DNA of 64,000 bases from an uncultured Eubacteriales bacterium (GTDB lineage: Bacteria; Bacillota; Clostridia; Lachnospirales; Lachnospiraceae): NCBI GenBank assembly GCA_900314525.1, contig OMVN01000004.1:62001-126000 (forward strand), read 5' to 3'. The stretch's first letter is position 1. Every line of letters starts with the position of its first letter. Both the position numbers and the translations under genes were made by a program. Below, in pieces: positions 1,414 to 32,062 of the stretch. A model generated the notes under the pieces. The model made no database searches and was not told the origin of the DNA. It was given only the letters and a program-made list of their open reading frames with translations.

Positions 1414-1426
1414 AAGGAGAAAGGGT

Positions 1427-2185: not shown

Positions 2186-2191
2186 ATAAAT

Positions 2192-3241: not shown

Positions 3242-3256
3242 GATGGAGATGAGAGC

Positions 3257-4198
3257 ATGCTATACAAAAATTTAGTAAATGACAACATGAATAAATCAGG
3301 GTTTACAAAGCTTCAGGGCGAAGAACTGATTAAACTCCAGGAGGCAATGATTGTCTGTTACAAAGAGATAAACATGGCATGCAGAAAACATGGCATAAAA
3401 TTAATACTTCAGGGAGGAAGCTTGCTGGGTTCAGTAAGACATGGAGGTTTTATTCCCTGGGATGATGATATGGATTTTGCCATGGTCAGATCTGATTATG
3501 AAAAATTTAAAAAGATTTTTGAAGATGAACTATCAGATAAATACATTCTAAGTGTTCCAAATAATGGTGGAAAATCATATGAGAGATTTATGCAGCTTTA
3601 TAGAAAAGATACAGTTATGGAAGATGAATTAGAGAGTGCAGGTCCTAATTATATAAAAATTGATGTTTTTCCACTTGATTATGCTCCAGACAATGCTGTT
3701 ATCCGAGAGATTAAGGGGATATTCTGCAATGCATTAATGTTTATTGCAGAATGTGTAAATGACAGGGAAAATGCAATGATTTTATCCCAAAATGACAACG
3801 AAGGGATTAAGAATATAGTGAATTTTTCACTTAAGGGAAGAGCTGTTTATGGAATTAGGGCTATTACTGGAAAAATATTTTCGTTCAAGTCTGGAAACAG
3901 ATGGTATGATTTGTGTGACAAGATGATAAGAAGCAGAAGAAAGACAGCATATTTAACAAGTGCTACAGGAAGCAGACATTACCTCGGTGAGGTGCTTAAG
4001 ACAGATGCATTCTTGCCAGTTACTATAGAAAAATTCCAGGGAATCAAAATGTATGCGCCTAACAAAACTAAGACATATTTGAGAAATCTTTACGGGGATT
4101 ATATGAAAATTCCACCAGAAGAAAAAAGACAGAGCCACTATATTAAGGCTATAGATGTAGATAGGATATTAGATTATGAGCGAACTGATACACAGTAA
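3257..4198 (+). CDS. LicD-family phosphotransferase
   Basis: A 313-residue LicD family protein. The hallmark block is at residues 51-80: LQGGSLLGSVRHGG, then PWDDDMDFAM with the Asp cluster D69-D71 and D73 of the nucleotidyltransferase fold. LicD enzymes move a phospho-substituent, classically phosphocholine, from a CDP donor to a glycan. Here the upstream IspD/TarI-like enzyme suggests a CDP-polyol donor; no choline kinase or CCT (LicA/LicC) is seen. The ribosome binding site is GGAGATGAGAG before ATG 3257. The 3' end overlaps the next gene by 23 bases, consistent with coupled translation. The family call is secure and the transferred group is not known. Confidence 0.9.
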   Translation: MLYKNLVNDNMNKSGFTKLQGEELIKLQEAMIVCYKEINMACRKHGIKLILQGGSLLGSVRHGGFIPWDDDMDFAMVRSDYEKFKKIFEDELSDKYILSVPNNGGKSYERFMQLYRKDTVMEDELESAGPNYIKIDVFPLDYAPDNAVIREIKGIFCNALMFIAECVNDRENAMILSQNDNEGIKNIVNFSLKGRAVYGIRAITGKIFSFKSGNRWYDLCDKMIRSRRKTAYLTSATGSRHYLGEVLKTDAFLPVTIEKFQGIKMYAPNKTKTYLRNLYGDYMKIPPEEKRQSHYIKAIDVDRILDYERTDTQ

Positions 4199-6032: not shown

Positions 6033-6087
6033 TGTTAAAATAGTATATGGCATTATTATTTAATTATAGAATGATGAGGATATAGAA

Positions 6088-9087
6088 ATGGCGAAAAAAA
6101 AGAAAATAATTGCCATAGCATCTGTGCTTGGCGCAACATATATTGTACTAGATATTATTGCTAAAAAAAAGAAGGCAGACAGTGTATATGAAAATGAACC
6201 AAGTCAGAAAAATCCAGTTGAGGGGAAAAAAGTCATTTTTGTTAAAGATGAGAGATGCAAGGAGAACGCTGACGGTATAAGGGGATATTTAGAAGAAATT
6301 GATGATGAACCAGAAATTGATGATTTATATGATAAGGTTATAAAACCAGTAATAGATAAGACATTAGCGTTTACTGGATTAGTAGTGTTGTCACCACTAT
6401 TGTTAACAATAGCAGTCGCGATTAAAATTGAAGATCCTGGTCCTGTTTTATTTACTCAGAAAAGGGTTGGAAAAAATAAAAAATTTTTTAAATTACATAA
6501 ATTCAGATCAATGAAGATGTGTACTCCTCATGATATACCTACACATATGCTTGAGAATCCAGAACAATACATAACTAAAGTTGGGGGATTTTTAAGAGCG
6601 CATAGTCTTGATGAGTTGCCACAAATATGGGATATATTTATTGGAAATATGAGTATTGTAGGTCCACGTCCAGCTCTCTGGAACCAGGATATGTTAACAG
6701 CATTAAGGGATAAGTATGATGCTAATAATATTACACCGGGACTTACAGGATGGGCACAGATTAACGGCAGGGATGAACTAGAGCTAGAAGATAAGGCAGA
6801 CCTTGATGGTGAATATGTAGCTAAAAGAGGACTAAAGATGGATGTAAAATGTTTTCTTTCATCTATTCACGTGCTGAAGAAAGATGACTCTGTTGTGGAA
6901 GGTGGAACAGGAGAACTGGAAAAGAAAATGGGACGCCATTATACACAAGGAAAATCAGATGGGGAGATAATTGGTGATATTGGTTTTAATACTCCGGTTA
7001 TTATTAATCATAATAAAAAAGTTAAGGTTCTTGTTACAGGAAAAGACTCTTATGTTGGAGATTCATTTATAAATTATGCTAGGGAGCACTATGGGGAGAA
7101 TTTAAATATAACAGTAATAGACATGATTGACGGCTCGTGGCGAAAAAAAGATTTCTCAGAATTTGATGTTGTATTTCATGTAGCTGGAATCGCACATGCT
7201 GATATTAATTATATAGATGAAGAAACAAGGGAAAAGTATTATAAGGTAAATACAGACCTTGCGATAGAAGTTGCAAATAAATGCAAAACTGAAGGCGTAA
7301 AAGAGTTCATATTTATGAGCAGTATGATTGTATATGGGGATTCAGCGCCTGTAGGGAAGAAGAAAATAATTACTAAAAATACAATTCCTAAACCAGCTAA
7401 TTTTTATGGGGACTCTAAGCTTCAGGCAGATGTAGGGGTAAGAGAACTTGCGGATGAAAAATTTAAGGTTGTATGTTTGCGTCCACCGATGATTTATGGA
7501 AAAGGTAGCAAGGGAAACTATCCTATTTTGGCCAAAATGGCAAAGATACTTCCAGTTTTTCCAAATATTTATAACCAGAGATCCATGCTTTATATAGATA
7601 ATTTGTGTGAATTTCTATGTAAAATGATATTAGCCGAAATAGATAAGCAGAGCATAGTTCTTATCCCACAAAATGGAGAGTATACAAGGACATCGGACAT
7701 GGTAAAGAGAATAGGAGATGTATCTGGAAACAGGATTATTTTAACTCGTGTATTTAATCCCTTTGTAAGAATTGCAGCAAGAGTACCAGGAAAAATAGGA
7801 GGCATAGTTAATAAGGCCTTTGGAAATAATTGTTATCAATTTTCCATAAGTGAATATCAGGGATTAGACTATATGGTAAATGATTTAAATGAAAGTATTG
7901 AGAAAACTGAGGGGAATAAAAGTGGTAAAACTATGTATGGAAACACAGATACAAAGCGGGTTTTAATGACAGCATCTGTAGCATCAATGATAGATCTTTT
8001 TAATGCCGATAATGTTTATATATTACAAAAATTAGGATACAAGGTAGATGTTGCAACAAATTTTGAATTTGGATCGATTACGAGCAGAGAACGTGTGGAC
8101 GAATTTAGAAATGAATTAGAAAGTCGTGGTATTAGGACATACCACGTACCTATACCTAGAGAAATATCTGATATTAAGAATATAGTAAAATCATATCGTA
8201 TTATGAAAAAGATTGTAAAAAATACTAACTATGATATTATACACACGCAATCTCCAATCGGTGGAGTTGTAACACGAATGGCATGTATGGATGCAAGAAA
8301 AAAGGGTGCAAGGGTAATATATACGGCACATGGCTTTCATTTTTATAAAGGATCAGATAAAAAATCATGGACAGTATTTTACCCAGTAGAAAAGTTTTTT
8401 TCACGTTATACCGATTTGATTATAACAATAAATCATGAAGATTACAGGAGAGCAAAACAATTTAATACATGCAAAGTTAAGTATGTTCCTGGAATAGGGG
8501 TTCATACAGATAGATTTGAGGATATTAAGATAAATAGAATTGAGAAAAGGGCAGAATTTGGATTTAATGATGAAGACTTTGTATTTATGAGCACAGGTCA
8601 GATTTCAGCCAGGAAAAATCATAAGGTAATTATAGAGGCATTGGCTATGATAGATAATCCCCATGTAAAATATCTAATTGTTGGATTTGGTGAACTAGAA
8701 GACGAACTAAAGAAAAAGGTTAATGATTTGGGACTTTCTGACAGAGTTGTTTTTGCTGGATACAGAAGTGATATAAATGAGCTTCTAGGGGCTGCAGATG
8801 CATTTGCATTTCCATCTATACAAGAAGGACTCCCGGTATCGTTAATGGAGGCAATGGCCAGTGGTCTGCCAATTGTGTGCAGCAAAATCAGAGGAAACAC
8901 TGATTTAATACGCAATGGCGAGGGTGGATATTTGTATAATCCTAATGATGTTATAGGATTTGCGAATGGAATGAAAAAAATTATTTCGGAATACGATGGA
9001 AAAATGTGTGAAATAAATCGTAACACCATGAAAAAATTTAATAACATTACAGTAAACAAAATCATGAAAAAAATTTATTCAGAATAG
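6088..9087 (+). CDS. Three-domain fusion: phosphoglycosyl transferase, SDR ketosugar reductase, family 4 glycosyltransferase
   Basis: A 999-residue protein with no internal stop. Residues 1-30 form a hydrophobic segment bounded by Lys clusters. Residues 80-285 are a monotopic initiating sugar transferase: LFTQKRVGKNKKFFKLHKFR, SLDELPQ (catalytic Asp-Glu), SIVGPRPA, GLTGWAQINGRDE. Residues 312-600 are an SDR domain: VTGKDSYVG, FMSSMIVYGD, YGDSK (Y440, K444). Residues 623-999 are a GT-B family 4 glycosyltransferase with TAHGFHFYKG and an ExxxxxxxE pair (E913, E921). With the 4,6-dehydratase upstream, the protein could reduce the keto sugar, load it on undecaprenyl phosphate and add the second sugar. 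An internal ATG at 7933 (residue 616), after GAGGGG, might also give a free glycosyltransferase. Confidence 0.88.
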   Translation: MAKKKKIIAIASVLGATYIVLDIIAKKKKADSVYENEPSQKNPVEGKKVIFVKDERCKENADGIRGYLEEIDDEPEIDDLYDKVIKPVIDKTLAFTGLVVLSPLLLTIAVAIKIEDPGPVLFTQKRVGKNKKFFKLHKFRSMKMCTPHDIPTHMLENPEQYITKVGGFLRAHSLDELPQIWDIFIGNMSIVGPRPALWNQDMLTALRDKYDANNITPGLTGWAQINGRDELELEDKADLDGEYVAKRGLKMDVKCFLSSIHVLKKDDSVVEGGTGELEKKMGRHYTQGKSDGEIIGDIGFNTPVIINHNKKVKVLVTGKDSYVGDSFINYAREHYGENLNITVIDMIDGSWRKKDFSEFDVVFHVAGIAHADINYIDEETREKYYKVNTDLAIEVANKCKTEGVKEFIFMSSMIVYGDSAPVGKKKIITKNTIPKPANFYGDSKLQADVGVRELADEKFKVVCLRPPMIYGKGSKGNYPILAKMAKILPVFPNIYNQRSMLYIDNLCEFLCKMILAEIDKQSIVLIPQNGEYTRTSDMVKRIGDVSGNRIILTRVFNPFVRIAARVPGKIGGIVNKAFGNNCYQFSISEYQGLDYMVNDLNESIEKTEGNKSGKTMYGNTDTKRVLMTASVASMIDLFNADNVYILQKLGYKVDVATNFEFGSITSRERVDEFRNELESRGIRTYHVPIPREISDIKNIVKSYRIMKKIVKNTNYDIIHTQSPIGGVVTRMACMDARKKGARVIYTAHGFHFYKGSDKKSWTVFYPVEKFFSRYTDLIITINHEDYRRAKQFNTCKVKYVPGIGVHTDRFEDIKINRIEKRAEFGFNDEDFVFMSTGQISARKNHKVIIEALAMIDNPHVKYLIVGFGELEDELKKKVNDLGLSDRVVFAGYRSDINELLGAADAFAFPSIQEGLPVSLMEAMASGLPIVCSKIRGNTDLIRNGEGGYLYNPNDVIGFANGMKKIISEYDGKMCEINRNTMKKFNNITVNKIMKKIYSE

Positions 9088-9097
9088 AGGATTAGAT

Positions 9098-10006
9098 ATG
9101 CAGTCGGTTTGCGTTATGATGTCAACATATAATGGGGAGAGATATTTAGAAGAACAAGTGCTTTCTATCTTGAATCAGAAGGGTATAGAAACGTACTTGA
9201 TAATAAGAGATGACGGATCTACAGACAATACATGCAGAATTTTAGATAAACTATGTTTACTAAATACAGACAGGATAAAAGTTTATAAAGGAAAGAATAT
9301 TGGGTATAATAAAAGTTTTCTCAAGTTATTGGGTTATGCAGAGGGATATGACTACTACGCATATGCCGATCAGGATGACTATTGGCTTCCAGATAAATGC
9401 CTAAGGGCTATAAATATTTTATCCAACAAAAATGCATGTTTATACGTTTCAGCATTGTCAATTACAAATCAAGAGTATGAACTGTTATATAATAAAGAGT
9501 TTAGAAAAAAATACAATACTATGGAAGGGGTATTTGCCAGATACAGATATCCTGGGTGTACTATGGTTTTCACAAATCAGGTAAGGGAGCAGGCAAAAAG
9601 CTTTTTGGATTTTAATTGCCCTGCAAAATGGTTTCCTACACATGATTTTATAACAACAGTAAGTGGATTTATTAGTGGAAAAGTTGTATTGGATAACCAA
9701 TCTAAGATACTCCATAGGCGATTCGAAAATAGTGTTTCTGCTGGTGGTAACGGAGTATTAAAGAGGATAAAGACGGAATGGAACATTATTGTAAATAGAA
9801 TCAATCAGCGTTCAATAGTTGCAAAATGGCTTTTGTCTTCAGAAGCACTAAATACATATAAATATAGGGAATTCCTGCAAAATATAGTTGATGCAAAACA
9901 TGGATTTAAGGCAAAAATAAAATTGATATTAAATCCAAAATTCCGTTCAGGCTCAATTTTATGTAATATTGAAACATTTATAAAAATTTTAATTAATAAT
10001 TACTAA
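9098..10006 (+). CDS. Family 2 glycosyltransferase
   Basis: A 302-residue GT-A glycosyltransferase, clearly a paralogue of the one at 493. Shared pattern: MMSTYNGERYLEEQVLSIL, then RDDGSTDNT, and YADQDDYW for the metal-binding cluster. It starts at ATG 9098, nine bases after the fusion gene, with an AGAGGAT ribosome binding site. The C-terminal third is basic and aromatic, fitting peripheral membrane attachment. It would add one sugar, possibly rhamnose, to the lipid-linked repeat in the cytoplasm; the donor is inferred only from similarity of the DQDD motif region. Confidence 0.85.
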   Translation: MQSVCVMMSTYNGERYLEEQVLSILNQKGIETYLIIRDDGSTDNTCRILDKLCLLNTDRIKVYKGKNIGYNKSFLKLLGYAEGYDYYAYADQDDYWLPDKCLRAINILSNKNACLYVSALSITNQEYELLYNKEFRKKYNTMEGVFARYRYPGCTMVFTNQVREQAKSFLDFNCPAKWFPTHDFITTVSGFISGKVVLDNQSKILHRRFENSVSAGGNGVLKRIKTEWNIIVNRINQRSIVAKWLLSSEALNTYKYREFLQNIVDAKHGFKAKIKLILNPKFRSGSILCNIETFIKILINNY

Positions 10007-10013
10007 GAAAAAA

Positions 10014-10022
10014 TGGTATAAT
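10014..10022 (+). promoter_or_regulatory. Extended -10 promoter candidate before vanZ
   Basis: TGGTATAAT lies 29 bases upstream of the VanZ start and matches an extended -10 (TG-N-TATAAT). No good -35 is seen 17 bases upstream, as is usual for this class. It could give a second transcription start inside the polysaccharide locus. Confidence 0.35.
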
Positions 10023-10050
10023 TGAATCAGCAGTTTATGGAGAATGACAG

Positions 10051-10539
10051 ATGAAACGTAAGCTTAGAATTTTAATTTCGGCAGCAGTACTAATCCTTTG
10101 GGCAATGTTTATATTTGGAATGTCCGGTGAGAGTGGTGAACATTCAGCAGGTATGAGCAAAGTTTTAGCGGATTTTGTTTATGGACTGCCATTTGTGAAA
10201 AACATATTCAAATTTGATATTTTACATTTCTTAATCAGGAAAACGGCACATTTTACAGAGTATGGAATATTAAATCTGCTTGTATTGAATCTTCTGTACA
10301 GCATTAAGAAATTTGACGGATTTTTCAGAATATATTTTATAAGCACAATACTATGCCTCGTATATGCAGCACTTGACGAGTACCACCAAACATTAGTGCC
10401 TGGAAGAGATGGTAATATAAGAGATGTAATTATAGATACCTGTGGATCAGCATTCTTTGGAATGATCTTTGGCAGGATAATATTTGGAAGGAAACAAAAG
10501 GAAGATGGAGAAGGTCAGCGTAATAATACCGGTGTATAA
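10051..10539 (+). CDS. VanZ-family membrane protein
   Basis: A 162-residue protein with about four membrane helices, the first at residues 7-25. Family motifs are visible: FGMSGESGEHSAGMS after helix 1, then LIRKTAHFTEYGIL, then ALDEYHQTLVPGRDGNIRDV. VanZ was first linked to low-level teicoplanin resistance, but its biochemical role is not settled and many homologues sit in surface polysaccharide loci, as here. The 3' end overlaps the start of the next glycosyltransferase by 35 bases, so the two are probably co-translated. Family call is firm; function is open. Confidence 0.85.
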   Translation: MKRKLRILISAAVLILWAMFIFGMSGESGEHSAGMSKVLADFVYGLPFVKNIFKFDILHFLIRKTAHFTEYGILNLLVLNLLYSIKKFDGFFRIYFISTILCLVYAALDEYHQTLVPGRDGNIRDVIIDTCGSAFFGMIFGRIIFGRKQKEDGEGQRNNTGV

Positions 10540-11416
10540 TAAATTTGATAAATTGTTCTCTGCTATTGATTCTGCGCTATCACAGGATTATCCTGAGCTG
10601 GAAATAATTGTCTCAGATGACGGTTCAAAAGATTTTCCATTCAGGAAGGTTGAGGAATATATTCTTGAAAAGAAACAGGACCATCTTTTTAATTACGAAA
10701 TAATTGCAAATAAAAAGAATATGGGTACTGTTAGAAACATGAATGGTGCTATAAAGGCATCTCATGGAGATATTTTAATAAATCTTGCTGGAGATGATAG
10801 ATTTTGTGAAAAGAATACAGTCAGCAAAATTGTTGATTATATGAACCAAAATAGTTTGGATAATCTTGTATGCAGGAGAAAAACAGTAGAAGACAATTTT
10901 ATTCCTAATGACAGGCAGGTAAAATTTTTAAAGAAATTTAATACTGCAAATAAACAGAAAAAAGCGATTGTTAATGGATATTTGCTGGCATCGGGAAGTG
11001 TTTTTTCTATTAGAAAGCAATTGATAGATAGACTGGACTTGTACGATGAAAGATATATTTTGATAGAAGATATGCCTTTTTTTTATAAAATGACACAGAA
11101 TAATATAAAAATAAATTTCAATTATGATATAACATCTGTTGTTTATTCAGAGGATGGAGTTTCTGGAGTGAAAAATAAAAAATTTCAAACAGATGAAAAA
11201 AATTTCCTTGTCAATATTATTAAATCAAAGGAAAATGATACTGATATAAAGAGGGTTGCTAAATATAGACTGATAAGAAAATATAGATACAATAATTTAA
11301 AAAAAATTAGTAAAATTAAATTTTATATAGATTATTTAGATATTATTATGTACCGAATGTTTGATTTTATTAACGATAGGGTAGGAGAAAAACTAGACAA
11401 AATAAAGAGGAGGTAG
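10505..11416 (+). CDS. Family 2 glycosyltransferase
   Basis: A 303-residue GT-A glycosyltransferase opening with VSVIIPVYNKFDKLFSAIDS, then VSDDGSKD and LAGDDRFCE for the nucleotide-sugar and metal sites. I choose ATG 10505 because the first residues then match the family and GGAAGGA lies 12 bases upstream; an in-frame TTG at 10484 would add seven residues. The last hundred residues are very Lys/Tyr-rich (YRLIRKYRYNNLKK), a common membrane-surface signature. It differs from the 493 and 9098 pair, so it likely uses a different donor or acceptor. It ends just before fdtA. Confidence 0.82.
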   Translation: MEKVSVIIPVYNKFDKLFSAIDSALSQDYPELEIIVSDDGSKDFPFRKVEEYILEKKQDHLFNYEIIANKKNMGTVRNMNGAIKASHGDILINLAGDDRFCEKNTVSKIVDYMNQNSLDNLVCRRKTVEDNFIPNDRQVKFLKKFNTANKQKKAIVNGYLLASGSVFSIRKQLIDRLDLYDERYILIEDMPFFYKMTQNNIKINFNYDITSVVYSEDGVSGVKNKKFQTDEKNFLVNIIKSKENDTDIKRVAKYRLIRKYRYNNLKKISKIKFYIDYLDIIMYRMFDFINDRVGEKLDKIKRR

Positions 11417-11418
11417 CT

Positions 11419-11832
11419 ATGCAGGTAGTAAAATATATGTTTCAGCCACATGGCGATGATAGAGGGCAGTTAATTGCACTGGAGGAATTCAATGATATTC
11501 CTTTCAGAATAAAGAGAGTATATTACATGTATGATACAAAGGAGGGTGTTAGAAGAGGTTTTCATGCACATAAATCTTTAGAGCAGATTCTTGTGTGTAT
11601 ACATGGAACATGTAAAGTGTTGTTAGATAACGGAAAAGAGAAGAAAATAGTACCACTTGAGAAACCTTACGAAGGTCTTTACATCTCAAATGATATCTGG
11701 AGAGAAATGTATGATTTCTCACCAGATGCTGTTTTACTGGTACTGGCATCTGAGATTTATGACAATAATGATTACATCAGAGATTATGACGAATTTTTAA
11801 AATTTGTAGGAGCAAAAAACAATGAACAGTAA
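11419..11832 (+). CDS. fdtA: dTDP-6-deoxy-hexulose 3,4-ketoisomerase (FdtA/QdtA-like cupin)
   Basis: A 137-residue single-domain cupin of the WxcM/FdtA/QdtA group. Key features are [12 protein letters not shown] near the start, [13 protein letters not shown] with the active-site histidines in the centre, and [19 protein letters not shown] at the end. FdtA-type enzymes move the keto group of dTDP-4-keto-6-deoxyglucose from C4 to C3. A GAGGAGG ribosome binding site precedes ATG 11419. It overlaps the aminotransferase gene by 11 bases, the standard pairing for dTDP-3-amino-3,6-dideoxy sugars. The substrate would come from RmlA/RmlB; rfbD at the left edge suggests those genes lie just outside. 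Fuc3N and Qui3N routes cannot be separated by eye. Confidence 0.87.
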
Positions 11833-12934
11833 TGTAACACATGTACCATTTGTCTCTTTTAAACCATTGGAGAAAGAGATGAAATCTGAAATAGAAAATG
11901 CATTTAACAGGGTGTTTGAAAATAGCTGGTATATTGGCGGGAATGAAGACAAAAAATTCGAAGAGGAATTTGCAAAATATTGTGAAACAAAATATTGTGT
12001 AGGTGTGGGAAATGGTCTTGATTCACTTATGATTTCTCTAAAAGCACTAGGGATTGGCAGTGGAGATGAGGTTATTGTTCCAGCTAACACATTTATAGCC
12101 ACAGCACTTGCAGTTACATATACAGGAGCAAAGGTTGTGCTTGTTGATCCTGACATTGAAACATACAATATTGATGTTAACAAAATAGAGGAAAAGATAA
12201 CCCAGAAAACTAAAGCAATTATTCCTGTGCATCTGTATGGCCAGCCATGTAAGATGGATGAAATTATGAAAATTGCGAATGACCATAAACTATATGTGAT
12301 AGAAGATTGTGCTCAGGCACATGGTGCAATTTACAAAGGTAAGAGAGTTGGTTCATTCGGGAATGCTGCTGGTTTTAGCTTTTATCCAGGAAAGAATTTA
12401 GGTGCTCTTGGGGATGCTGGTGCTTTAGTAACGAATGATGAAAAAATAGCCACAAAAGCCCGTGCAATAGGAAATTATGGCTCTGATTACAAATATCATC
12501 ATATTTATCAGGGAAATAATTCAAGACTTGATGAGATACAGGCAGCAATATTATGTGAGAAATTAAAATGTCTGGATGAAGTAAATAATAATAGAGCCAC
12601 GACAGCAAAAAAATATCTAGAAGGAATTTGTAACCCCAAAATAAGTCTTCCTAAGTTTATTGAAAATGTAAAACCAGTATGGCATGTTTTTGCTATAAGA
12701 TGCGAAGAAAGAGACAGACTCGAAAAATATCTAAATGAAAAGGGTATAGCAACAAATAAACATTATCCAATTCCAATTCATCTTCAGAAGTGCTATGAAG
12801 ATCTAGGTTATAATAAAGGGGACTTCCCTGCTGCAGAATATATAAGTGAAACAGAACTGAGTATTCCAATGTATTACGGAATGACAGACAAAGAGATAAA
12901 TTATGTGATAGAAAAGGTAAATGAGTTTAGCTAG
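11822..12934 (+). CDS. fdtB: DegT/DnrJ/EryC1-family sugar aminotransferase (FdtB-like)
   Basis: A 370-residue PLP-dependent sugar aminotransferase. Motifs: GVGNGLDSL for phosphate binding, [36 protein letters not shown] with the PLP Asp, and [17 protein letters not shown] where K191 is the expected Schiff-base lysine. [12 protein letters not shown] and the C-terminal [12 protein letters not shown] are also family-typical. It would transfer an amino group from glutamate to C3 of the keto sugar made by FdtA, giving dTDP-Fuc3N or dTDP-Qui3N. The following GNAT gene may N-acylate the product. Length and motifs are normal, with no sign of damage. Confidence 0.9.
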
Positions 12935-12978
12935 ACTGGTAGTGAAATATCAGGATATATATTTGAAAGGAATAGTTT

Positions 12979-13476
12979 ATGAGATTGCGAAAACTGGAAA
13001 TAAAAGACGCACCATATATGCTAGAATGGATGCATGATTCTGATGTCATTAGGTATATGAAAAAGGATTTTTCGGCAATGACAATAGAAGACTGTGCGTC
13101 GTTTATAAAAAGTTGCGGAGATGAGCATGAAAATATTCATAGAGCTATTGTAAATGATAATGATGAGTATTTGGGAACTGTAAGTCTGAAAAACATAAAT
13201 AATACAAGAAAAGATGCAGAATTTGCAATCACAATTCGTAAGTGTGCAATGGGGACAGGAGTGTCCTCATATGGGATAAAAAATATAATTAAGTACGGAT
13301 TTGAAAATATAGGATTAGAAAGTATTTACTGGTATGTTTCTAAAGAAAATATCAGGGCCATTAAGTTTTATGACAAGAATGGATATAAAAGGGCGACATT
13401 GGATAAATTGTTTAAGACATTTGAATATACAGATAAATTGATAAAGTCTTACGTATGGTATCAGGTATTAAAATAA
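12979..13476 (+). CDS. GNAT-family N-acetyltransferase
   Basis: A 165-residue RimJ/RimL-like GNAT protein: MRLRKLEIKDAPYMLEWMHD at the start, YLGTVSLKNI for the central strand, MGTGVSSYGIKNIIKYGFE for the acetyl-CoA pyrophosphate loop and helix, and NIRAIKFYDKNGYKR near the end. It has an AAAGGAA ribosome binding site. Just after FdtA and FdtB, the likely role is acylation of the 3-amino group of the dTDP-amino sugar. The known acylases FdtC and QdtC are left-handed beta-helix enzymes, so this would be a non-homologous replacement. Peptide or ribosomal-protein acetylation is the alternative. Confidence 0.8.
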   Translation: MRLRKLEIKDAPYMLEWMHDSDVIRYMKKDFSAMTIEDCASFIKSCGDEHENIHRAIVNDNDEYLGTVSLKNINNTRKDAEFAITIRKCAMGTGVSSYGIKNIIKYGFENIGLESIYWYVSKENIRAIKFYDKNGYKRATLDKLFKTFEYTDKLIKSYVWYQVLK

Positions 13477-13547
13477 AAAAGTATACTAATATTAGTGTAA
13501 CAATAATAAATAATAAAAATATTATATGAATTGCAGGTAAATAGAGT

Positions 13548-14996
13548 TTGAGTAAATTATGTATAAAAGAAAAATGGAATGAAATTCCACTGACAGTAAA
13601 AGTATCAATTTCATATGCTATCTGTAGTATACTTCAGAAATGCTTAGGTCTAATTACGTTGCCACTCTTTACAAGACTACTTACTACAGAACAATATGGT
13701 CAAGCGACGATTTATTCGTCATGGTCAGGGATACTAACAATTTTTTTAACATTACAATTGCCATATGGATCTTTTTCAAAAGCAATGGTAAAGTATGAAA
13801 ATAGGAGAGATGAGTATATTGCGTGTGCGCAGGGAATATGTATACTTCTCTCATGTTTTTTTTTAACAATGTATTTGCCATTTAGAAATTTATGGAATAA
13901 GTTGTTTGAACTTCCGACAGATATAATAGTTTTAATGGTATTTGATATAATAGCAGGTGCTGGAATTGCTTTTTGGAGTGGAAAAAAGAGATTTGAATTT
14001 AGATATAAGGAAGTAATAGTTGTTACATTGGCAATATCAATAATATCTCCTATTTTACAGTATTTTTTGGTGGTTAACACGGATGAAAAGGGATATGCAA
14101 GGATAATTGGAGGAGCTATTGTAACTATAGTATTTGGAGGGTATATTTTCATTTCAAGTTTAATTAAAGTGAAACATATTTTCAATGAGGAATTCTGGAG
14201 ATATGCATTGGGATTTAATGTTCCATTGTTGGTATATTATTTATCGCAAATAATATTTAATACTAGCGATAGAATAATGATTAGTCATATGGCTGGAAAA
14301 AGTAAGGCGGCAATCTATGGAGTTGCCTATAGTCTAGCTATTATGCTTAATTTTGTTTTGACTGCTATTAATAACTCATATGTGCCATGGTTTTATGGAA
14401 AGTTAAAGAATAGAAAACAGGATGATAATAAACAAATAGCAAACGCGATTTCAATATTAATGGCATCATTATTGCTTGGTGTTATATGGTTTTCCCCAGA
14501 AATAATTAGAATATTGGCAGGAAAGGCATATACAGGAGCAAAATGGATAGTGCCACCTGTTGCAATTAGTACTTTACTGTTATTTTATTCACAGTTATCA
14601 ATAAATTATGAATTTTATTTTGAAAGTAAAAAAAAACTAATTAAAGCATCTATATGTGCTGCAGTGACAAATATAATACTTAATGCGTTGATGATTCCTG
14701 TATTTGGATATTATGCAGCAGGGTATACGACACTTTTTAGTTATCTATTGTTTGCAGGGGCTAATTATTTTGCTATGAAGAAAATAATAAAAGAAAAGGG
14801 AATTAAAACTCACGGATTTGATGTGAAAACATTATTAATAATTCTCAGTGTATTTGTTGCATTAGCATTTGTGGGCATGTTTTTATATAATTATTTTATA
14901 ATAAGAGTATGTGTAGTATTGATAGCAGCATTTGTTATGGCATTAAATTATAGACAATTCGTGAAATATTGGAGGATACTAAAAGATGAAAAATAA
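13548..14996 (+). CDS. wzx: Wzx-type oligosaccharide flippase (MOP superfamily)
   Basis: A 482-residue membrane protein with roughly 12 to 14 hydrophobic segments, polysaccharide-exporter type. The N-terminus holds ICSILQKCLGLITLPLFTRL followed by LTTEQYGQATIYSSW, typical of these flippases. It would turn the undecaprenyl-linked repeat unit to the outer membrane face. The start is TTG 13548: no in-frame ATG lies near, and GCAGG lies about 13 bases upstream. It overlaps the next gene by 11 bases. From here to 21 kb the DNA looks more AT-rich (many ATA and AAT codons) than the flanks. No matching Wzy polymerase is recognised in the window. Confidence 0.87.
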   Translation: MSKLCIKEKWNEIPLTVKVSISYAICSILQKCLGLITLPLFTRLLTTEQYGQATIYSSWSGILTIFLTLQLPYGSFSKAMVKYENRRDEYIACAQGICILLSCFFLTMYLPFRNLWNKLFELPTDIIVLMVFDIIAGAGIAFWSGKKRFEFRYKEVIVVTLAISIISPILQYFLVVNTDEKGYARIIGGAIVTIVFGGYIFISSLIKVKHIFNEEFWRYALGFNVPLLVYYLSQIIFNTSDRIMISHMAGKSKAAIYGVAYSLAIMLNFVLTAINNSYVPWFYGKLKNRKQDDNKQIANAISILMASLLLGVIWFSPEIIRILAGKAYTGAKWIVPPVAISTLLLFYSQLSINYEFYFESKKKLIKASICAAVTNIILNALMIPVFGYYAAGYTTLFSYLLFAGANYFAMKKIIKEKGIKTHGFDVKTLLIILSVFVALAFVGMFLYNYFIIRVCVVLIAAFVMALNYRQFVKYWRILKDEK

Positions 14997-24358: not shown

Positions 24359-24712
24359 ATGGCTAAAAGAGGAGGATTTCCAGGCGGAATGCCAGGAAAC
24401 ATGAACAATTTAATGAAACAGGCTCAGAAGATGCAGAAGCAGATGGAAGAGACTACAAAAGAATTAGAGAGCAAAGAAGTTACAGCTGCAGCTGGTGGTG
24501 GTGCAGTATCCGTAACTGTTTCAGGTAAAAAAGAAGTAACAAAAGTAGAGATAGATAAAGAAGTAGTAGATCCTGACGATGTTGAAATGTTAGAGGATTT
24601 AATTATGGCTGCAGTTAATGAGGCACTCAGAAAGATGGAAGACTTATCTAACCAGTCTATGTCTAAGATTACAGGCGGACTTGGCGGATTCGGAGGAGGT
24701 TTCCCATTCTAA
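24359..24712 (+). CDS. ybaB: YbaB/EbfC-family nucleoid-associated protein
   Basis: A 117-residue YbaB/EbfC protein. Gly-rich N-terminus ([20 protein letters not shown]), central alpha-beta core with [19 protein letters not shown], and a Gly-rich tail [12 protein letters not shown]. Family members form dimers that bind and bridge DNA. The GAGGAGG ribosome binding site lies in the end of dnaX. It sits between dnaX and recR as in most Firmicutes. Normal length. Confidence 0.95.
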
Positions 24713-24713
24713 T

Positions 24714-25310
24714 ATGGATTACTATAGCAGTCACATATCAAAGTTAATAGAAGAACTGTCAAGACTTCCGGGGGTTGGTCCTAAATCCGCCGGACGTCTT
24801 GCGTTTCATATACTTAATATGCCAGCAGAACAGGTTGATTCTCTGGCTAATGCAATAAGGAGTGCAAAGGAAAATGTAAAATACTGCAAGGAGTGTTTTA
24901 CACTGACAGATGATGAACTTTGTCCAATTTGCAAGAGTCCAAAGAGAGACCATCATACAATTATGGTGGTTGAGAATACAAGGGATCTGGCTGCATATGA
25001 GAAGACAGGTCAGTACAATGGCGTATACCATGTTCTTCACGGAGCAATATCTCCAATGCAGGGTATAGGTCCAAATGATATTAAATTAAAAGAACTTATG
25101 ATGAGATTACGAGGAGATGTAAGCGAGGTCATAATTTCCACAAATTCCACACTTGAAGGAGAGACTACAGCTACATATATAAGCAAGCTTATTAAACCGA
25201 CAGGAATAAAAGTAACAAAAATTGCAAGCGGAGTTCCTGTGGGAGGAGACTTAGAGTATGTAGATTCGGTAACGCTTCTTAAAGCTTTAGAGGGCAGAGT
25301 GGACATGTAG
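24714..25310 (+). CDS. recR: Recombination protein RecR
   Basis: A 198-residue RecR protein. Helix-hairpin-helix at [20 protein letters not shown], zinc finger [17 protein letters not shown], then a TOPRIM domain ([44 protein letters not shown]). RecR works with RecO and RecF to load RecA at gaps. I start at ATG 24714, which gives the family N-terminus; the frame extends further upstream but only over ybaB. GGAGGAGG lies about 15 bases upstream. The condensin-like genes follow 21 bases after the stop, linking repair and chromosome organisation in one transcript. Confidence 0.96.
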
Positions 25311-25331: not shown

Positions 25332-26870
25332 ATGCGCACAGAATATACATTAGTAAAAGATATTGTAAGTGGTCATAGTAAGCGTATGAACAACATAAAG
25401 AAATATTATCCATTTTTTAAGGTTTCGGAGATTTCTTTTCTTGGATTCAAGGAGGGAAAATACGAGAATCTTGATATGGGTTATATTTTGATGGCTGTTC
25501 TGCGCTTTTTTATTGAGCAGAATAATTTCAATGAGAAAGACGTCAAATACGAAGATTATCAGGAATTTATGCATGATTTGTACATAAGAGATTTTTCCAT
25601 GAATTTAGATAAAGATGAAGAAAAAGAACTTAGTCTCTATATTTTTGACAAGATAAGAAATGATGGAAGACCATTCTCATTTACATATTTTGACCCTGAA
25701 GACAAAAAGAAAAAAACAATACGAACAAGAATTATAGAGAATAAAATATCCGGTGATGATATTGTTTACCAGGTGTCTGCTGATGCTGTTTCTTTTTACC
25801 TTGATACAAAGGAGATAAAGGAGGAGAGTAACATAAGTGTTGCCCAGGTTCTACTTGGAAAGATGATAGAGAGCAGAAATTTTTCTGGTGGAACTGAAGT
25901 TATCCTTAAGATTAATAATGAGGTTATGAAACTCATAAACAAGAAGAATGAGATAATAAATGTTATGAGTTATGATGTTTTCCATGGAGTAAAGATGTAT
26001 GAGGACTTTATGGAAAATACTGTAAAGTGGTTTGAAAATGAGCAGAAACTTTTCAAGAAAAATAAAGAACTTGTAGACAAGGCCCTGAAAAATTGTGACA
26101 GTGATAAATCATATTATTCCGCAATGGAAGATATTTATCATTTAGAAGAGGAGTTAAACAAGGCGATGATCAGGCACAGCCAGCTCCTAAGCGCCAGTGT
26201 TGCCCTGCAGGATCAGGTGGATGGAATTATCCTGAAGAATAAACTAAGTAAAATTAGAGTGTCATTTGATTTTAACAAGACTATGTCGGAAATGATAAGC
26301 AGGGATGATATAAGAAATCTTAGATACCTTGTATGGCCACTGTTTAAATTTGGAGTCAGCAAGACTTTTTCATTATCTATGATAGACAATATGTTAGATT
26401 ATAAGACCGATGACAAAGAACAGAATGAGAAAATAAAAAAAGAAAAAGAAGATAAGAACTTTAAGTATGCGGATGAAATAGAAGACGAGAGAATCAGGCA
26501 CAATTATAATGCATTTCTCAAGATTATGTTTGAAATGCTTCTTGAAATGGAAGAGTTCTCCCTTAGAAAATATAATGAAAGATTAGTAAGTATGCTTGGA
26601 GACAGAGTACTTGAAAATGGAGATTATTTTTCATTTCTCGCACATCTCTCTCAAAAAGATGCCTATGATATGAAAAAGATTGCTATGAAACCAGACACAT
26701 TCCTGGAAGGAATTATGAAGGATTTCTATGTGAAAAACAAAGATGACAGTGACAGATATTCAGAGATTGCGTTTGATATTAAATTCACGGGAGATGTAAT
26801 TGAAATAAATGAAAATAGTATTACAGATATCTTATTTACCTCAGCCGTGATAAAAGGAGGCCTTAAATAG
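25332..26870 (+). CDS. JetA/MukF-like condensin kleisin subunit (DUF5716-type)
   Basis: A 512-residue protein. The stretch IVYQVSADAVSFYLDTKEIK followed by AQVLLGKMIESRNFSGGTEV has the pattern I know from JetA/DUF5716 proteins of Wadjet systems (winged-helix end, then the TKEI motif and the IExGNF-like helix). Two helical regions follow, rich in Lys and Glu, which fits the kleisin middle. In MukBEF logic this subunit bridges the ATPase heads and carries the MukE-like dimer. It is followed without a gap by the next gene and is transcribed with recR. Assignment rests on motif recall, not a search. Direct evidence is position: it starts the three-gene set ending in the SMC-like ATPase. Confidence 0.75.
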   Translation: MRTEYTLVKDIVSGHSKRMNNIKKYYPFFKVSEISFLGFKEGKYENLDMGYILMAVLRFFIEQNNFNEKDVKYEDYQEFMHDLYIRDFSMNLDKDEEKELSLYIFDKIRNDGRPFSFTYFDPEDKKKKTIRTRIIENKISGDDIVYQVSADAVSFYLDTKEIKEESNISVAQVLLGKMIESRNFSGGTEVILKINNEVMKLINKKNEIINVMSYDVFHGVKMYEDFMENTVKWFENEQKLFKKNKELVDKALKNCDSDKSYYSAMEDIYHLEEELNKAMIRHSQLLSASVALQDQVDGIILKNKLSKIRVSFDFNKTMSEMISRDDIRNLRYLVWPLFKFGVSKTFSLSMIDNMLDYKTDDKEQNEKIKKEKEDKNFKYADEIEDERIRHNYNAFLKIMFEMLLEMEEFSLRKYNERLVSMLGDRVLENGDYFSFLAHLSQKDAYDMKKIAMKPDTFLEGIMKDFYVKNKDDSDRYSEIAFDIKFTGDVIEINENSITDILFTSAVIKGGLK

Positions 26871-27575
26871 ATGGAAGAGAGAAATTTATCAAAATCGTTA
26901 GACATAGTTGCCAGACTGATAAATGGAGATGAGATAAGCAGAGATGATAAAAATGGAAGAGAATTGTATGAGGAGTACACCACAAATTCCCAGATATACG
27001 ATATTACTAACTCTATCTGCAAAAAATTGAATATTTCCGTTTATGAATATGAGAATAGTATTTTTGCAAGTGCAGGTGAAAATAACAGGGTTTTTGGCTA
27101 CTCTAATGATGAACTCAAAAAAGAAATAGGAGTAAGGCTGAACAAGGAATTATTTGTATGTTATTTTATTATTTATAATGTGATTACATGGTTTTACAAC
27201 GACACTGACAATCAGACATTTAACGAGTACGTGAAAATAGAAGACATAATAAAGACAGTGGATGCTGCTCTCTCAGGTGTGGTAAACGAATTGTCAGTTG
27301 TAACATTAAATGAGATAGAGGAAAACAGTTTTAAGGTAATTGCCCTCCTGTGGGAAGATTTGCCAGTAGTGACAAACGAGGAGACCAGCGCAAGAGCTGC
27401 AAGGGGCTCTAAATATGGATTTACCAAGATGACAATGAATTTCCTGATAAAACAGGACCTTATGGTTGAAAATGAGGGAAGGTATTACCCTAAGAAACGA
27501 TTCCACGCTCTTGTCAGAAATTATTTTGAGGAGTACAAGGGCAGATTATATGAAATTATGAAAGGAGAAGCATAA
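26871..27575 (+). CDS. JetB/MukE-like condensin subunit (DUF6063-type)
   Basis: A 234-residue mostly helical protein. The middle, LSGVVNELSVVTLNEIEENS, and the end, FTKMTMNFLIKQDLMVENEG then YYPKKRFHALVRNYFEEY, look like a winged-helix unit, as expected for MukE- or JetB-type proteins. I cannot name it from a catalytic motif because such proteins have none. The AAGGAGG site lies inside the end of the jetA-like gene, and the start codon directly follows its stop. The stop overlaps the next start (TAATG). The three genes are therefore translationally linked, supporting a stoichiometric complex. Confidence 0.65.
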   Translation: MEERNLSKSLDIVARLINGDEISRDDKNGRELYEEYTTNSQIYDITNSICKKLNISVYEYENSIFASAGENNRVFGYSNDELKKEIGVRLNKELFVCYFIIYNVITWFYNDTDNQTFNEYVKIEDIIKTVDAALSGVVNELSVVTLNEIEENSFKVIALLWEDLPVVTNEETSARAARGSKYGFTKMTMNFLIKQDLMVENEGRYYPKKRFHALVRNYFEEYKGRLYEIMKGEA

Positions 27576-30500
27576 TGCCACACATTAACAGAATCAGAGT
27601 CAACAATGTAAAATACAATTTTGGCACACAATTTTATGATGATTTTATGATGAGATTTTCCTGCAAGAATACAATTTATGATTTGGCAAATGGTGGTGGA
27701 AAAAGTGTTTTGATGCTTCTACTTTTTCAGAATCTTATCCCAAACTGTACTCTTGATGAGAAACAGCCAATTGAGAAACTTTTCAGGACAAATGAAGGAA
27801 GTACAACTATACATTCCCTTATTGAATGGAAATTAAGTGACGAATTCATAAAAGATAATTTTAAATATATGCTTACCGGATTCTGCGCGAGAAAGGCAAA
27901 GGACAATTCAGAAACAGACTTAAATGGTGAGATTAAGAAGAACGGACAGGCAATTGAATATTTTAATTATGTTATTTTTTACAGAAAATTTAATGACAAT
28001 GATATAAAAAATCTCCCTCTGAGCAAAGACGGAGAGAGAATTACATACACTGGACTCAAGAATTATCTTAAAGAACTGTCAAAGAATGACTTCAGCCTCC
28101 AGATTCATATATTTGAGAGAAAAGGCGATTACCAGAGATTTATAGCTGAGTATGGATTGTATGAGAGTGAATGGGAAATAATAAGGGGAATTAATAAGAC
28201 TGAGGGACACGTAAGAACTTATTTTGAGACAAATTACAAGAATACAAGGAAAGTTGTAGAGGACTTGTTTATTGAGGAAATAATAGAGAAATCATTTAAG
28301 AACAATTACTCAGGAACAGATGAAAATGATAAGCTGGCAGTTACACTCTTGAATATAAAGGACAAATTGATAGAACTGTCAAAGAAGAAAGATGAAATCA
28401 ATAATTATGATAGACAGATAAACATTATAGATGGTTTTGCACAGAGGGTATTGTCTGTGAAGCAGATGTACAAAAATATGGAAGATACATTTGTGACAAT
28501 ACAGAAAATATATAATACTGTGGCAGACAATTCAGACAATTTTGAGGGAATAAGGGAAAGAAAAAATGAGGCCCTTGAAGAATTATTATTACAGAAAAAG
28601 TCATTCAGAAGAAAATCAGATACTGCAAAAATTCTTGTGGATAAAAAAGAATTGTTAGACATTGAGAAAGATTTAGAAATATCACAGGAAGAATTAAATA
28701 AGATAGAGGATGACATAGCCGCATTAAATGAATCATTAAATATGATGGAAGGAACTAATCATTATCTTGAATATATAGATGCAAAAAATGAGTATGATAA
28801 ATTAGTTCTTGTAATGGACAATATTTTGAAAAATAATGGGGAAATTCTCACAAGACTTAAAGAAGCAGTTTGTGTAAAAAAACTGGTAGATAATGAGATT
28901 AAAAACAGTATTGAGACAGAACTAAATCGCAGAAAAAATGAATCTCTAGAAGAAAATAAAAATATAGAGAATCTTGAAAATAGATTAATGGCAGAAGAAA
29001 AATCTATTGCAGTAAGGGAATATGAAATTGCAGAGAAAAATGACAGACTTAAATTCCTTGATGAAGAAATGATCAGATTAAAGAATGAGACTTCAATTCT
29101 TCTACCTGCTCAGGCTGAAACTGAGTATAAGAAACAGCTAAATGAATTAGAAGAGTTAAAAATCAAGATATCAGAGAAGAAATCAGAGTGCGAAAGTTTA
29201 AACGAAGAGCATTACAGGTTACAGTTTGTTTATGAAAATCAAGCGGATAAAACACGCAGATTAAAAGAAAGATTAGATGAGATAAAGGAAAAGTCTAAAA
29301 AGGCAGATAATAATCAGGACAAACTCATCAAGTTAAGAGAAGTATACCAGGAAAGTGATAATCACAGACTTGAGGAAAAAATCCAGAAAGCTTACAGAAA
29401 CACTGTACTCAGACTAGACAAGGAAAAAAAGGAAATAGAAGAGAAGAATAAGTTACTGTCAAATCTTGAGAGAGGAATCCCGTTGTTTGAATCTGCAGAT
29501 ACAAAGGCAGTTGTTGATTATATAAAGAGATATCATACAAGTACAGCGGAATATGGAGCAGAACTAATTTCTGGAATGACAGAGGAAAACAGAATAGATG
29601 TTATAAGAAACAATCCTATCCTTCTATATTCAGTTATTGTATATGAAAAAGCTCAGGAAATACTTAGTGATACAGATATGATAAAAAATCTGGAATTAAA
29701 ATCAATGGTTCCTGTAATAAATGCCGAGAACATAGAGGATTTTCAGGAAGAAATAACTAAGAACCAGCTTAAAGATACAGGAAATGTATTATGTCTTACC
29801 GGAAATCCAGGAGAATTTAAAGATGATTTTATTAATAGGGAATATGAAAAACTTAAGAAGGTTATTGAAGATAAGACAGTATATTTAGATAGAATATCGG
29901 AGAATGAAAAGGTTATGGCAGGGGACCTCTCTTTTGTAAAGATGATGAATGAAGGATTCTTTAATGATGGAGATACAGATCCAGCAAAGCAGTTTGAAAT
30001 TTTGTCAGAGGAATTAAAAATAGCTGAAGAAGAATTATTGAAATTTAAAATAGATGCAGATAAATTCGACGATGATAAAGTGGCTTTAGAAAATGAAATT
30101 AAGGATTTGGAGTCTCTTGCAACTGAAAAAACTGATATCTTGAAAAAATTAATATGTATAAAAGAGGATATAGAGCAATATAGAGGATTACAGAGGGATA
30201 AAGATATTTTATCAGAAGCAGTTAATACAGATAAAAAAGCTTTGTCAGAGCAAAATATTATATTAGATAATATTAAGACTAAGCATGATGAAAATGCAAA
30301 AAGAATAGAGAATTTAAGTGATGAACTGGAAGAAATTGATAAGGAATGGCAGGAAAAATATGAGACATATTTTGATACCAGCATATATGACACCATTGTT
30401 CATGAAGATGATAATAAATCACTTACAGAGATTAAGGAGCAGTTTGTCGGCAAGGAAAGTTTGGATATTACACTTTCCGCTCTGTTACAGGCATTAAGAG

Positions 30501-32062
30501 GTAAAAATTCATCAGTTTCGGATAAGGAGAAGCTTCTTGGAACATATCAGATGAGTATGCAGAGGAGTTTGATGAGATTAGATTATCTTGGAATTCCCAA
30601 AGATAAGTTTGATATACTTTATGAGAAGAAGGAACTGTTTCCTGTAAAACATCAGAAGATGCAGGAAATTAAAACAAAAGAAGATGAGTTAAAGAGCCAG
30701 AGAAAAGTGTGTCTCAGACTTATAGATGAAAAGAAATCAAAAAGAGATAAATTACAGGGAAAGATAAATCATCTTATTGAAACGGCTAAATCGGAGTATG
30801 GTGAATTTGATGAAAACATCGTTGATAGTTCTGAAATAACATCTTTCATAACAGAAAATGAAAAACTTTCTAATGCATTAAATGACAGAATAGCTGTTTT
30901 AAATGCAGAAATTAAGGACTTGAATGATAAGAAAGTAATTAATGGAATATTATTAAAGAACTGCGACAGACTTATGAAGAAATCATCTATAAAAGTTGCG
31001 GAAAAAACTGTCAGATTTGAAGAGATAAGTGCAGATGAATTGGAAAATAAGTATAATGATGCATCTGAAAAAATTGATAAATTTGTAAAAGACAAATATA
31101 GCCGATTAGAGAGTTTCGAGAGGGAATTGCAGATGTTATGTGATACCCTGAAAATGTTAGGTGCAGAGGGACTTTCGAGTGAGTTCAGAGGAAACATACG
31201 AATGCCACAGTCTATGGATGATGTAGAAGTTCTTATTGATTCGCTTATGGAAACAAATAAACTCATTTCACTTGAAAAGGACAGAGTACAAAAAGGACTC
31301 ACGGATATAAAACTGACTAAAGAGAATTTTGAGAATCAGTGTATCCAGACATGTATAAACATAAAGACTGATCTTGAAAGACTTGGAAGACTATCTAGAA
31401 TTACAATTGATGGTGAAAATGTATCAATGGTAAAATTAAAGATTCCATATGTTGATGAGGAATTGTATAAAGACAGGATGTCAGATTATATAGATACAAT
31501 AGCAAAAGATGTGGATGGTTTAGAGGACAAGGAGAGCAGACTTAAGTTCATAAGAAATAATCTGAGTTGGAAGAAGCTGTTTTCAGTAATCGTGACAGAT
31601 ATGAACAGAATTAAGCTGAGCCTGTACAAGAGAGAAAGAATTGCCGCTCAGTCCAGATATCTTCCATACGAAGAGGCGGTAGGAAGTACAGGACAGTCAC
31701 AGGGTATATATATTCAGTTCCTGATTTCAGTAATAAATTACATTTCAAGCATAAATTCAAAGAATGCAAACTCAATGGGAATCAGAAAAGTAATATTTAT
31801 AGATAACCCGTTTGGAGCAGCAAAAGACAGCTATATATGGGAGCCAATATTTAAACTTATGAAGGTAAATAATGTACAGCTTGTGGTACCTGCAAGAGGT
31901 GCAACTCCTGCGATTACAGGCAAATTCGATGTCAATTATATACTTGGACAGAAGATGATAGGGGGAAAACAGCAGACAGTAGTTGTTAATTACTTCAGTA
32001 ATGTGAAAACAGATGAACTTGATTATACAACTTTATCATTTGAACAGACAGCATTGTTTTGA
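27575..32062 (+). CDS. JetC/MukB-like SMC ATPase
   Basis: A 1495-residue SMC-type protein. The N-terminal head has LANGGGKSV, with K43 and S44 as Walker A residues; the first Gly of the usual motif is Leu37. Residues about 340 to 1330 are coiled coil rich in Glu, Lys and Leu with a break around 640-780, a probable hinge. The C-terminal head holds an ABC-signature-like GSTGQSQG (1370-1377) and Walker B VIFIDNPFGAA, with D1410 but Asn1411 where Glu is normal. It should trap or extrude DNA loops with its two partners. No JetD nuclease follows, so this looks like a chromosome-organising or nuclease-free Wadjet relative. Confidence 0.82.
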   Translation: MPHINRIRVNNVKYNFGTQFYDDFMMRFSCKNTIYDLANGGGKSVLMLLLFQNLIPNCTLDEKQPIEKLFRTNEGSTTIHSLIEWKLSDEFIKDNFKYMLTGFCARKAKDNSETDLNGEIKKNGQAIEYFNYVIFYRKFNDNDIKNLPLSKDGERITYTGLKNYLKELSKNDFSLQIHIFERKGDYQRFIAEYGLYESEWEIIRGINKTEGHVRTYFETNYKNTRKVVEDLFIEEIIEKSFKNNYSGTDENDKLAVTLLNIKDKLIELSKKKDEINNYDRQINIIDGFAQRVLSVKQMYKNMEDTFVTIQKIYNTVADNSDNFEGIRERKNEALEELLLQKKSFRRKSDTAKILVDKKELLDIEKDLEISQEELNKIEDDIAALNESLNMMEGTNHYLEYIDAKNEYDKLVLVMDNILKNNGEILTRLKEAVCVKKLVDNEIKNSIETELNRRKNESLEENKNIENLENRLMAEEKSIAVREYEIAEKNDRLKFLDEEMIRLKNETSILLPAQAETEYKKQLNELEELKIKISEKKSECESLNEEHYRLQFVYENQADKTRRLKERLDEIKEKSKKADNNQDKLIKLREVYQESDNHRLEEKIQKAYRNTVLRLDKEKKEIEEKNKLLSNLERGIPLFESADTKAVVDYIKRYHTSTAEYGAELISGMTEENRIDVIRNNPILLYSVIVYEKAQEILSDTDMIKNLELKSMVPVINAENIEDFQEEITKNQLKDTGNVLCLTGNPGEFKDDFINREYEKLKKVIEDKTVYLDRISENEKVMAGDLSFVKMMNEGFFNDGDTDPAKQFEILSEELKIAEEELLKFKIDADKFDDDKVALENEIKDLESLATEKTDILKKLICIKEDIEQYRGLQRDKDILSEAVNTDKKALSEQNIILDNIKTKHDENAKRIENLSDELEEIDKEWQEKYETYFDTSIYDTIVHEDDNKSLTEIKEQFVGKESLDITLSALLQALRGKNSSVSDKEKLLGTYQMSMQRSLMRLDYLGIPKDKFDILYEKKELFPVKHQKMQEIKTKEDELKSQRKVCLRLIDEKKSKRDKLQGKINHLIETAKSEYGEFDENIVDSSEITSFITENEKLSNALNDRIAVLNAEIKDLNDKKVINGILLKNCDRLMKKSSIKVAEKTVRFEEISADELENKYNDASEKIDKFVKDKYSRLESFERELQMLCDTLKMLGAEGLSSEFRGNIRMPQSMDDVEVLIDSLMETNKLISLEKDRVQKGLTDIKLTKENFENQCIQTCINIKTDLERLGRLSRITIDGENVSMVKLKIPYVDEELYKDRMSDYIDTIAKDVDGLEDKESRLKFIRNNLSWKKLFSVIVTDMNRIKLSLYKRERIAAQSRYLPYEEAVGSTGQSQGIYIQFLISVINYISSINSKNANSMGIRKVIFIDNPFGAAKDSYIWEPIFKLMKVNNVQLVVPARGATPAITGKFDVNYILGQKMIGGKQQTVVVNYFSNVKTDELDYTTLSFEQTALF

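Follow-up and report, generated by a model that had tools for sequence, protein, structure and literature searches.

A nuclease-free JetABC complex in Lachnospiraceae probably derived from a type III Wadjet

MksBEF of Pseudomonas aeruginosa unites a kleisin, a KITE protein and a structural maintenance of chromosomes (SMC) ATPase, has no nuclease, and coexists with Smc-ScpAB. Type I Wadjet (JetABCD) carries JetD together with a DUF5716 JetA, a DUF4194 JetB and a JetC whose Walker B motif reads DE; type III Wadjet is organised as JetDABC. It is an open question how SMC complexes pass from chromosome maintenance to immunity or back. In a 2023 review (PMC10586767), most work to date is said to concern type I, with types II and III awaiting characterisation; MukBEF is described as having apparently taken over from Smc-ScpAB in enterobacteria, MukBEF and MksBEF are suspected to be former defence systems whose relationships are unresolved, and P. 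aeruginosa MksBEF is given as a precedent for a chromosomal, nuclease-free relative. Here we analyse a 64,000-nucleotide stretch (the window) of contig OMVN01000004.1 from an uncultured Eubacteriales bacterium of the family Lachnospiraceae. On its plus strand, at positions 25332-32062 and directly 3' of recR, lies the gene row JetA-JetB-JetC. We consider it probable that JetABC goes back to a type III Wadjet and is now an SMC complex without a nuclease, a second, chromosome-inherited condensin that most likely extrudes loops without cutting DNA. The change can be traced on a tree, from JetD-bearing outgroups through a JetD-bearing sister to a JetD-free clade inherited with its hosts.

The three proteins belong to the sequence families of type III Wadjet. 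PADLOC assigned them to JetA3 (651.5 bits, E 2.5e-196), JetB3 (335.4 bits, E 4.1e-101) and JetC3 (model PDLC00581; 1600.3 bits, E 0), and these homologues stand in one row, in the type III order A-B-C. In Pfam, JetB was identified as DUF6063 (PF19539), for JetA no family matched up to an E value of 1, and NCBIfam gave no name to any of the three at E 0.01. An earlier description of JetA as DUF5716-like was wrong, since PADLOC places DUF5716 on JetA1 models, for example in the other Wadjet of the same genome. In structure comparisons, MukF kleisins ranked first for the predicted fold of JetA and KITE proteins for that of JetB, whose model matched both JetB and MukE structures; the folds expected of a MukBEF/MksBEF-like condensin were thus found in both models. 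Searches with JetA and JetC profiles against PDB sequences gave weak matches only, mostly to coiled coils. In a profile comparison, the window JetA was matched with 99 percent probability to JetA from L161, a type III set that has JetD, and hhalign detected no sequence similarity of the window JetA and JetB to one type I JetA and JetB, taken from the same genome.

JetC has an intact Walker A motif (NGGGKS), the C-loop STGQSQG and, at window positions 31802-31813, the Walker B motif DNPF, in place of the DE of type I JetC. DNPF was present in every type III JetC row aligned (L067-L075, L154, L157-L164), in JetD-bearing and JetD-less sets alike. The C-loop STGQSQG is common to the window JetC and that of Clostridium vincentii (L154), a JetD-bearing relative, so this change seems older than the loss of JetD. 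Alignment of C. vincentii with the clade showed nothing clear as to the loss of a docking motif in JetA or JetB.

The JetD TOPRIM nuclease of type III Wadjet is absent alongside JetABC. tblastn (E 0.01) found no JetD-like stretch in the window, and, as the original prediction had it, the fourth gene encodes not JetD but a protein with tetratricopeptide repeats (TPR) and a P-loop domain. The set is nuclease-free in that no JetD lies in or near it, no search having been aimed at other kinds of partner encoded farther away in the genome. A survey of 200 Lachnospiraceae genomes, assigned to this family through loci identical to those of named records (for example L039 = L082 and L057 = L142), revealed PF19539 matches in 47 and, when neighbouring genes were considered, a window-like JetD-less set in 31 (in G002 and G197 the contigs end in JetB). 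From named genomes, the best 80 of 380 relatives were taken, ranked by JetC similarity alone; their titles were mostly Lachnospiraceae or other Clostridiales/Eubacteriales, with three titled Bacteroides, and JetD was found in only one of these 80, C. vincentii. After removal of nine duplicates, of JetD-bearing loci and of the divergent G092/L049, in which JetB lies at a contig end and which was left out of the clade counts and of the tree comparison described below, 99 clade loci remained. JetA was adjacent in 93 of them and JetB likewise in 93. None of the 77 loci having JetA and at least 1.5 kb of upstream sequence carried JetD, and tblastn with 14 JetD proteins (E 0.01; 100 sequences, the window being present twice) found no JetD fragment in the 99 loci. 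The same search recovered 15 of 15 JetD-bearing control loci, several of which had supplied queries. The zero count was not produced by excluding loci labelled as JetD-bearing, because the labelled rows all fall outside the clade in the tree, C. vincentii as its sister. Searches of open-licence PubMed Central papers brought up no description of a type III clade without JetD.

The direction of the change is given by relatives outside the family. At class level, ten genomes outside the family had a JetC relative at E 1e-20 (391 genomes searched), and JetD lay directly upstream of JetA in all ten, although the JetD of L158 is cut by a contig end and the JetA of L166 was named by position. At phylum level, 20 genomes outside the class had a JetC relative at E 1e-50 (398 genomes searched), all of them with a type III JetD; only JetC and JetD were read in these 20. 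JetD was on the same contig as JetC, a few kb upstream, in 18, and on another contig, its ends unchecked, in two. Pooled, 30 of the 30 relatives found outside the family have JetD, 28 of them within a few kb upstream. C. vincentii, with the gene order JetD-JetA-JetB-JetC, groups with the clade with a Shimodaira-Hasegawa-like approximate likelihood ratio (SH-aLRT) of 100 in one tree and 0.92 in another, and the 39 JetD-less rows tested form one side of a branch with an SH-aLRT of 92.9. Because outgroups and sister have JetD and the clade does not, a single ancestral loss fits best, being the simplest account. If this is true, C. vincentii, the closest JetD-bearing sister found, and the clade make a before-and-after pair in which two related complexes can be compared.

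The JetD-less set appears to have descended with its hosts. For 27 genomes, two of them of one genus, the JetA, JetB and JetC trees were set against that of dnaX and recR; G002 and G197 were dropped for their contig ends, G160 and G161 because JetB is missing from their open reading frame (ORF) calls, and G174 had no recR match. Mantel correlations with the host tree were 0.613 for JetA, 0.642 for JetB and 0.725 for JetC, with 12, 13 and 13 of 24 splits in common, respectively. Label shuffles gave on average 0.17-0.19 splits in common and at most 4 (for JetC, mean 0.17 and maximum 3), and no strongly supported split conflicted with the host tree (0 of 13 for JetC). Inclusion of the divergent G092 yielded correlations of 0.57 for JetC and 0.38 for JetB, with 14 of 25 JetC splits in common. 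Because recR adjoins JetABC in 12 of the 27 genomes, the 15 others were tested apart, resulting in a correlation of 0.70 and 6 of 12 splits in common. In contrast, 11 JetD-bearing type III sets of Lachnospiraceae (five of them with a JetC of some 500 residues; G135 dropped) were not host-congruent, with correlations of 0.089 for JetB and 0.075 for JetC (p above 0.35) and none of 8 splits of the JetB tree in common with the host. Among 5000 random draws of 11 clade members, none was as low as 0.075, the minimum being 0.46. In a host tree of 48 genomes, built without an outgroup and rooted at its midpoint, carriers occur on either side of the root, which suggests early presence of JetABC with many later losses. 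The window JetC had no phage match, no relative among viral contigs and a single plasmid match, a distant one in which 19 percent of the query aligned at 22 percent identity; the JetD-bearing control, searched against plasmids only, retrieved the same single record, hence the plasmid search does not discriminate.

ScpA was found in 31 of 32 carriers of the JetD-less set, the sole exception being G092. Because the carriers have ScpA as well, JetABC is an additional condensin, unlike MukBEF with respect to Smc-ScpAB; the likeness to MukBEF lies in the predicted folds, closest to MukF for JetA and matching MukE for JetB. With MksBEF the set shares the combination of kleisin, KITE and SMC subunits and the lack of a nuclease, and it seems to differ in belonging to the type III lineage, as only type III models matched, a judgement made against type I JetA and JetB rather than MksBEF proteins. 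Type I Wadjet resembles it in overall subunit plan but not in JetD, in the families of JetA and JetB or in Walker B. Type III Wadjet is like it in subunit families, gene order and DNPF, and unlike it in having JetD and, within the family, in lacking host congruence.

These comparisons suggest a course of events in which a type III ancestor would have lost JetD, most likely once, before the carrier Lachnospiraceae diversified. JetABC, with JetA as kleisin, JetB as KITE subunit and JetC as SMC ATPase, would have been kept in addition to Smc-ScpAB, passing to descendants with the chromosome. Most likely it would load on DNA and extrude loops in the manner of MksBEF and MukBEF, leaving the DNA uncut, and its purpose could be chromosome folding, segregation or repair. 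What the analysis shows is which subunits are present, that JetD is missing, in what order the changes came (from the outgroups), host congruence, selection on the genes (see below) and co-existence with ScpA; loop extrusion, a chromosomal substrate and the biological role are inferred. Since the cutting part was lost and the set appears to be passed down with the chromosome, JetABC probably organises DNA rather than destroying it. Because JetD was tested for and is absent, the set is not a Wadjet by membership, and most likely it works like MksBEF. The original prediction of a nuclease-free Wadjet relative in Lachnospiraceae thus stood up to both the fold comparison and the search for jetD; its role on the chromosome is one that we infer. 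For defence annotation the locus is a warning, combining a strong PADLOC fit with what is probably not a plasmid-cutting system. We also lean towards the wider view that chromosomal condensins without a nuclease arose from Wadjets on two or more occasions, by the route of MksBEF/MukBEF and by loss of the type III JetD in an ancestor of Lachnospiraceae, JetABC there becoming a vertically inherited accessory condensin with the TPR/P-loop protein perhaps as loader or regulator.

Several points weigh against a second condensin. A Glu at Walker B is catalytic in SMC ATPases, and type III JetC has Asn at this canonical position, which calls for caution. Retention is patchy, as seen in the 31 of 200 genomes. 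Patchiness of this kind would fit an optional defence, in which small circular DNA is trapped or compacted by JetABC and thereby silenced or mis-segregated, much as human Smc5/6 restricts extrachromosomal viral DNA; sensing may survive the loss of JetD. We regard such a non-cutting defence as unlikely, though worth keeping in mind, since the tree is congruent with the host and gene contexts track the JetC tree, in contrast to the family's type III sets with JetD.

Table 1. Genes of the JetABC row and its immediate neighbours in the window.
Feature	Position	Strand	Remarks
recR	24711..25310	+	direct upstream neighbour, 21 bp gap to JetA; context, outside the complex
JetA3, MukF-like kleisin subunit, 512 aa	25332..26870	+	PADLOC and predicted fold
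JetB3, KITE subunit, DUF6063, 234 aa	26871..27575	+	abuts JetA directly
JetC3, SMC ATPase, 1495 aa	27575..32062	+	one-base overlap with JetB; PADLOC PDLC00581; motifs
TPR - acidic - degenerate SpoVK/CbbX-like P-loop protein, 1098 aa	32135..35431	+	recurrent neighbour 3' of JetC

The ORF coordinates (Table 1) bear out the gene order, direct abutment, one-base overlap and position just after recR that had been described for the window. As a general rule, the link to recR did not hold, recR being upstream in only 29 of 77 clade loci. Promoter and terminator scans remained at chance level.

A defence with a replaced effector, in which the TPR/P-loop gene or another neighbour kills or cuts, would be in keeping with the recurrence of the TPR gene: of the 78 clade loci in which sequence extends 3 kb or more past JetC, 46 have it within 3 kb downstream, and the upstream contexts of these are of several kinds. 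It was found there in 21 of 23 recR-linked loci with downstream sequence of that length. Of 42 loci away from recR for which both flanks were available, 19 had the TPR gene within 3 kb and 16 a radical S-adenosylmethionine (SAM) gene within 1 kb. Its sole PADLOC match, to SspF, is weak (15.5 bits, E 0.0012). No Pfam or NCBIfam model matched the gene above its cut-off, none of the matches in Pfam, PADLOC or NCBIfam was to a nuclease family, and its C-terminal end resembles a SpoVK/CbbX-like P-loop domain only weakly, below model cut-offs. In 21 of the 78 loci a radical SAM gene takes its place downstream. Moreover, with a threshold of E 0.001 the TPR gene has matches in 197 of the 200 family genomes (the lowest-scoring ones may be different proteins), as against 31 with the JetD-less set. 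In five genomes (L167-L170, L179) the site is empty, with recR followed by the TPR gene at 19 to 50 bp and JetABC absent, and in other genomes the gene lies elsewhere. Being family-wide and present where JetABC is not, the TPR gene is a neighbour with its own job; we rejected it as a replacement effector, an alternative raised in the original prediction, and hold any such defence to be very improbable.

A JetD borrowed in trans from another Wadjet of the genome is something that we would hardly expect. The source genome does have a type I JetD, and 10 of 32 carrier genomes have a JetD_C match of some kind. The former, the single JetD_C match of that genome, is part of a type I Wadjet that is complete (JetA1-JetB1-JetC1-JetD1; L002 4550-11158) and lies on a different contig, C56; as it belongs to its own system, JetD is not supplied to the window set from elsewhere in the source genome. 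The window JetA and JetB, as noted, are without sequence similarity to their type I counterparts, and 22 of the 32 carriers had no JetD_C match at E 0.01. With the type III JetD profile, 31 of 33 carrier genomes had no match above 29 bits; weak matches of 16-29 bits were seen in seven carriers, one of them the source genome's type I JetD. The two strong matches (above 390 bits, G151 and G174) do not share a contig with the JetD-less set and lie near a second, high-scoring type III JetB. A type III JetD travelling with the set, which would have spoken against a nuclease-free complex, was therefore found in none of the 33 carriers. The type I Wadjet of the source genome lies beside ORFs that, judged from their sequence, appear recombinase-like.

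JetA, JetB and JetC are under purifying selection, with ratios of non-synonymous to synonymous substitution rates (dN/dS) of 0.018-0.121 in ten pairs wherever dS was computable, the ratios being rough in the several pairs with dS above 1.5. These ratios, together with long open frames and nucleotide-binding motifs kept across the clade, make a decaying Wadjet remnant, as the loss of JetD and the absence of the set from most family genomes might suggest, scarcely credible.

Two further arrangements were observed. In a second recurrent context (L043, L057, L060 and others) a radical SAM gene lies downstream of JetABC; in L043 the genes after it encode malic enzyme, a MoxR-type AAA protein and a DUF58 protein. 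In one JetD-bearing type III set (L073 of G176, 1069-13871), an ORF of 2433 aa and two smaller ORFs are placed between JetD and JetA.

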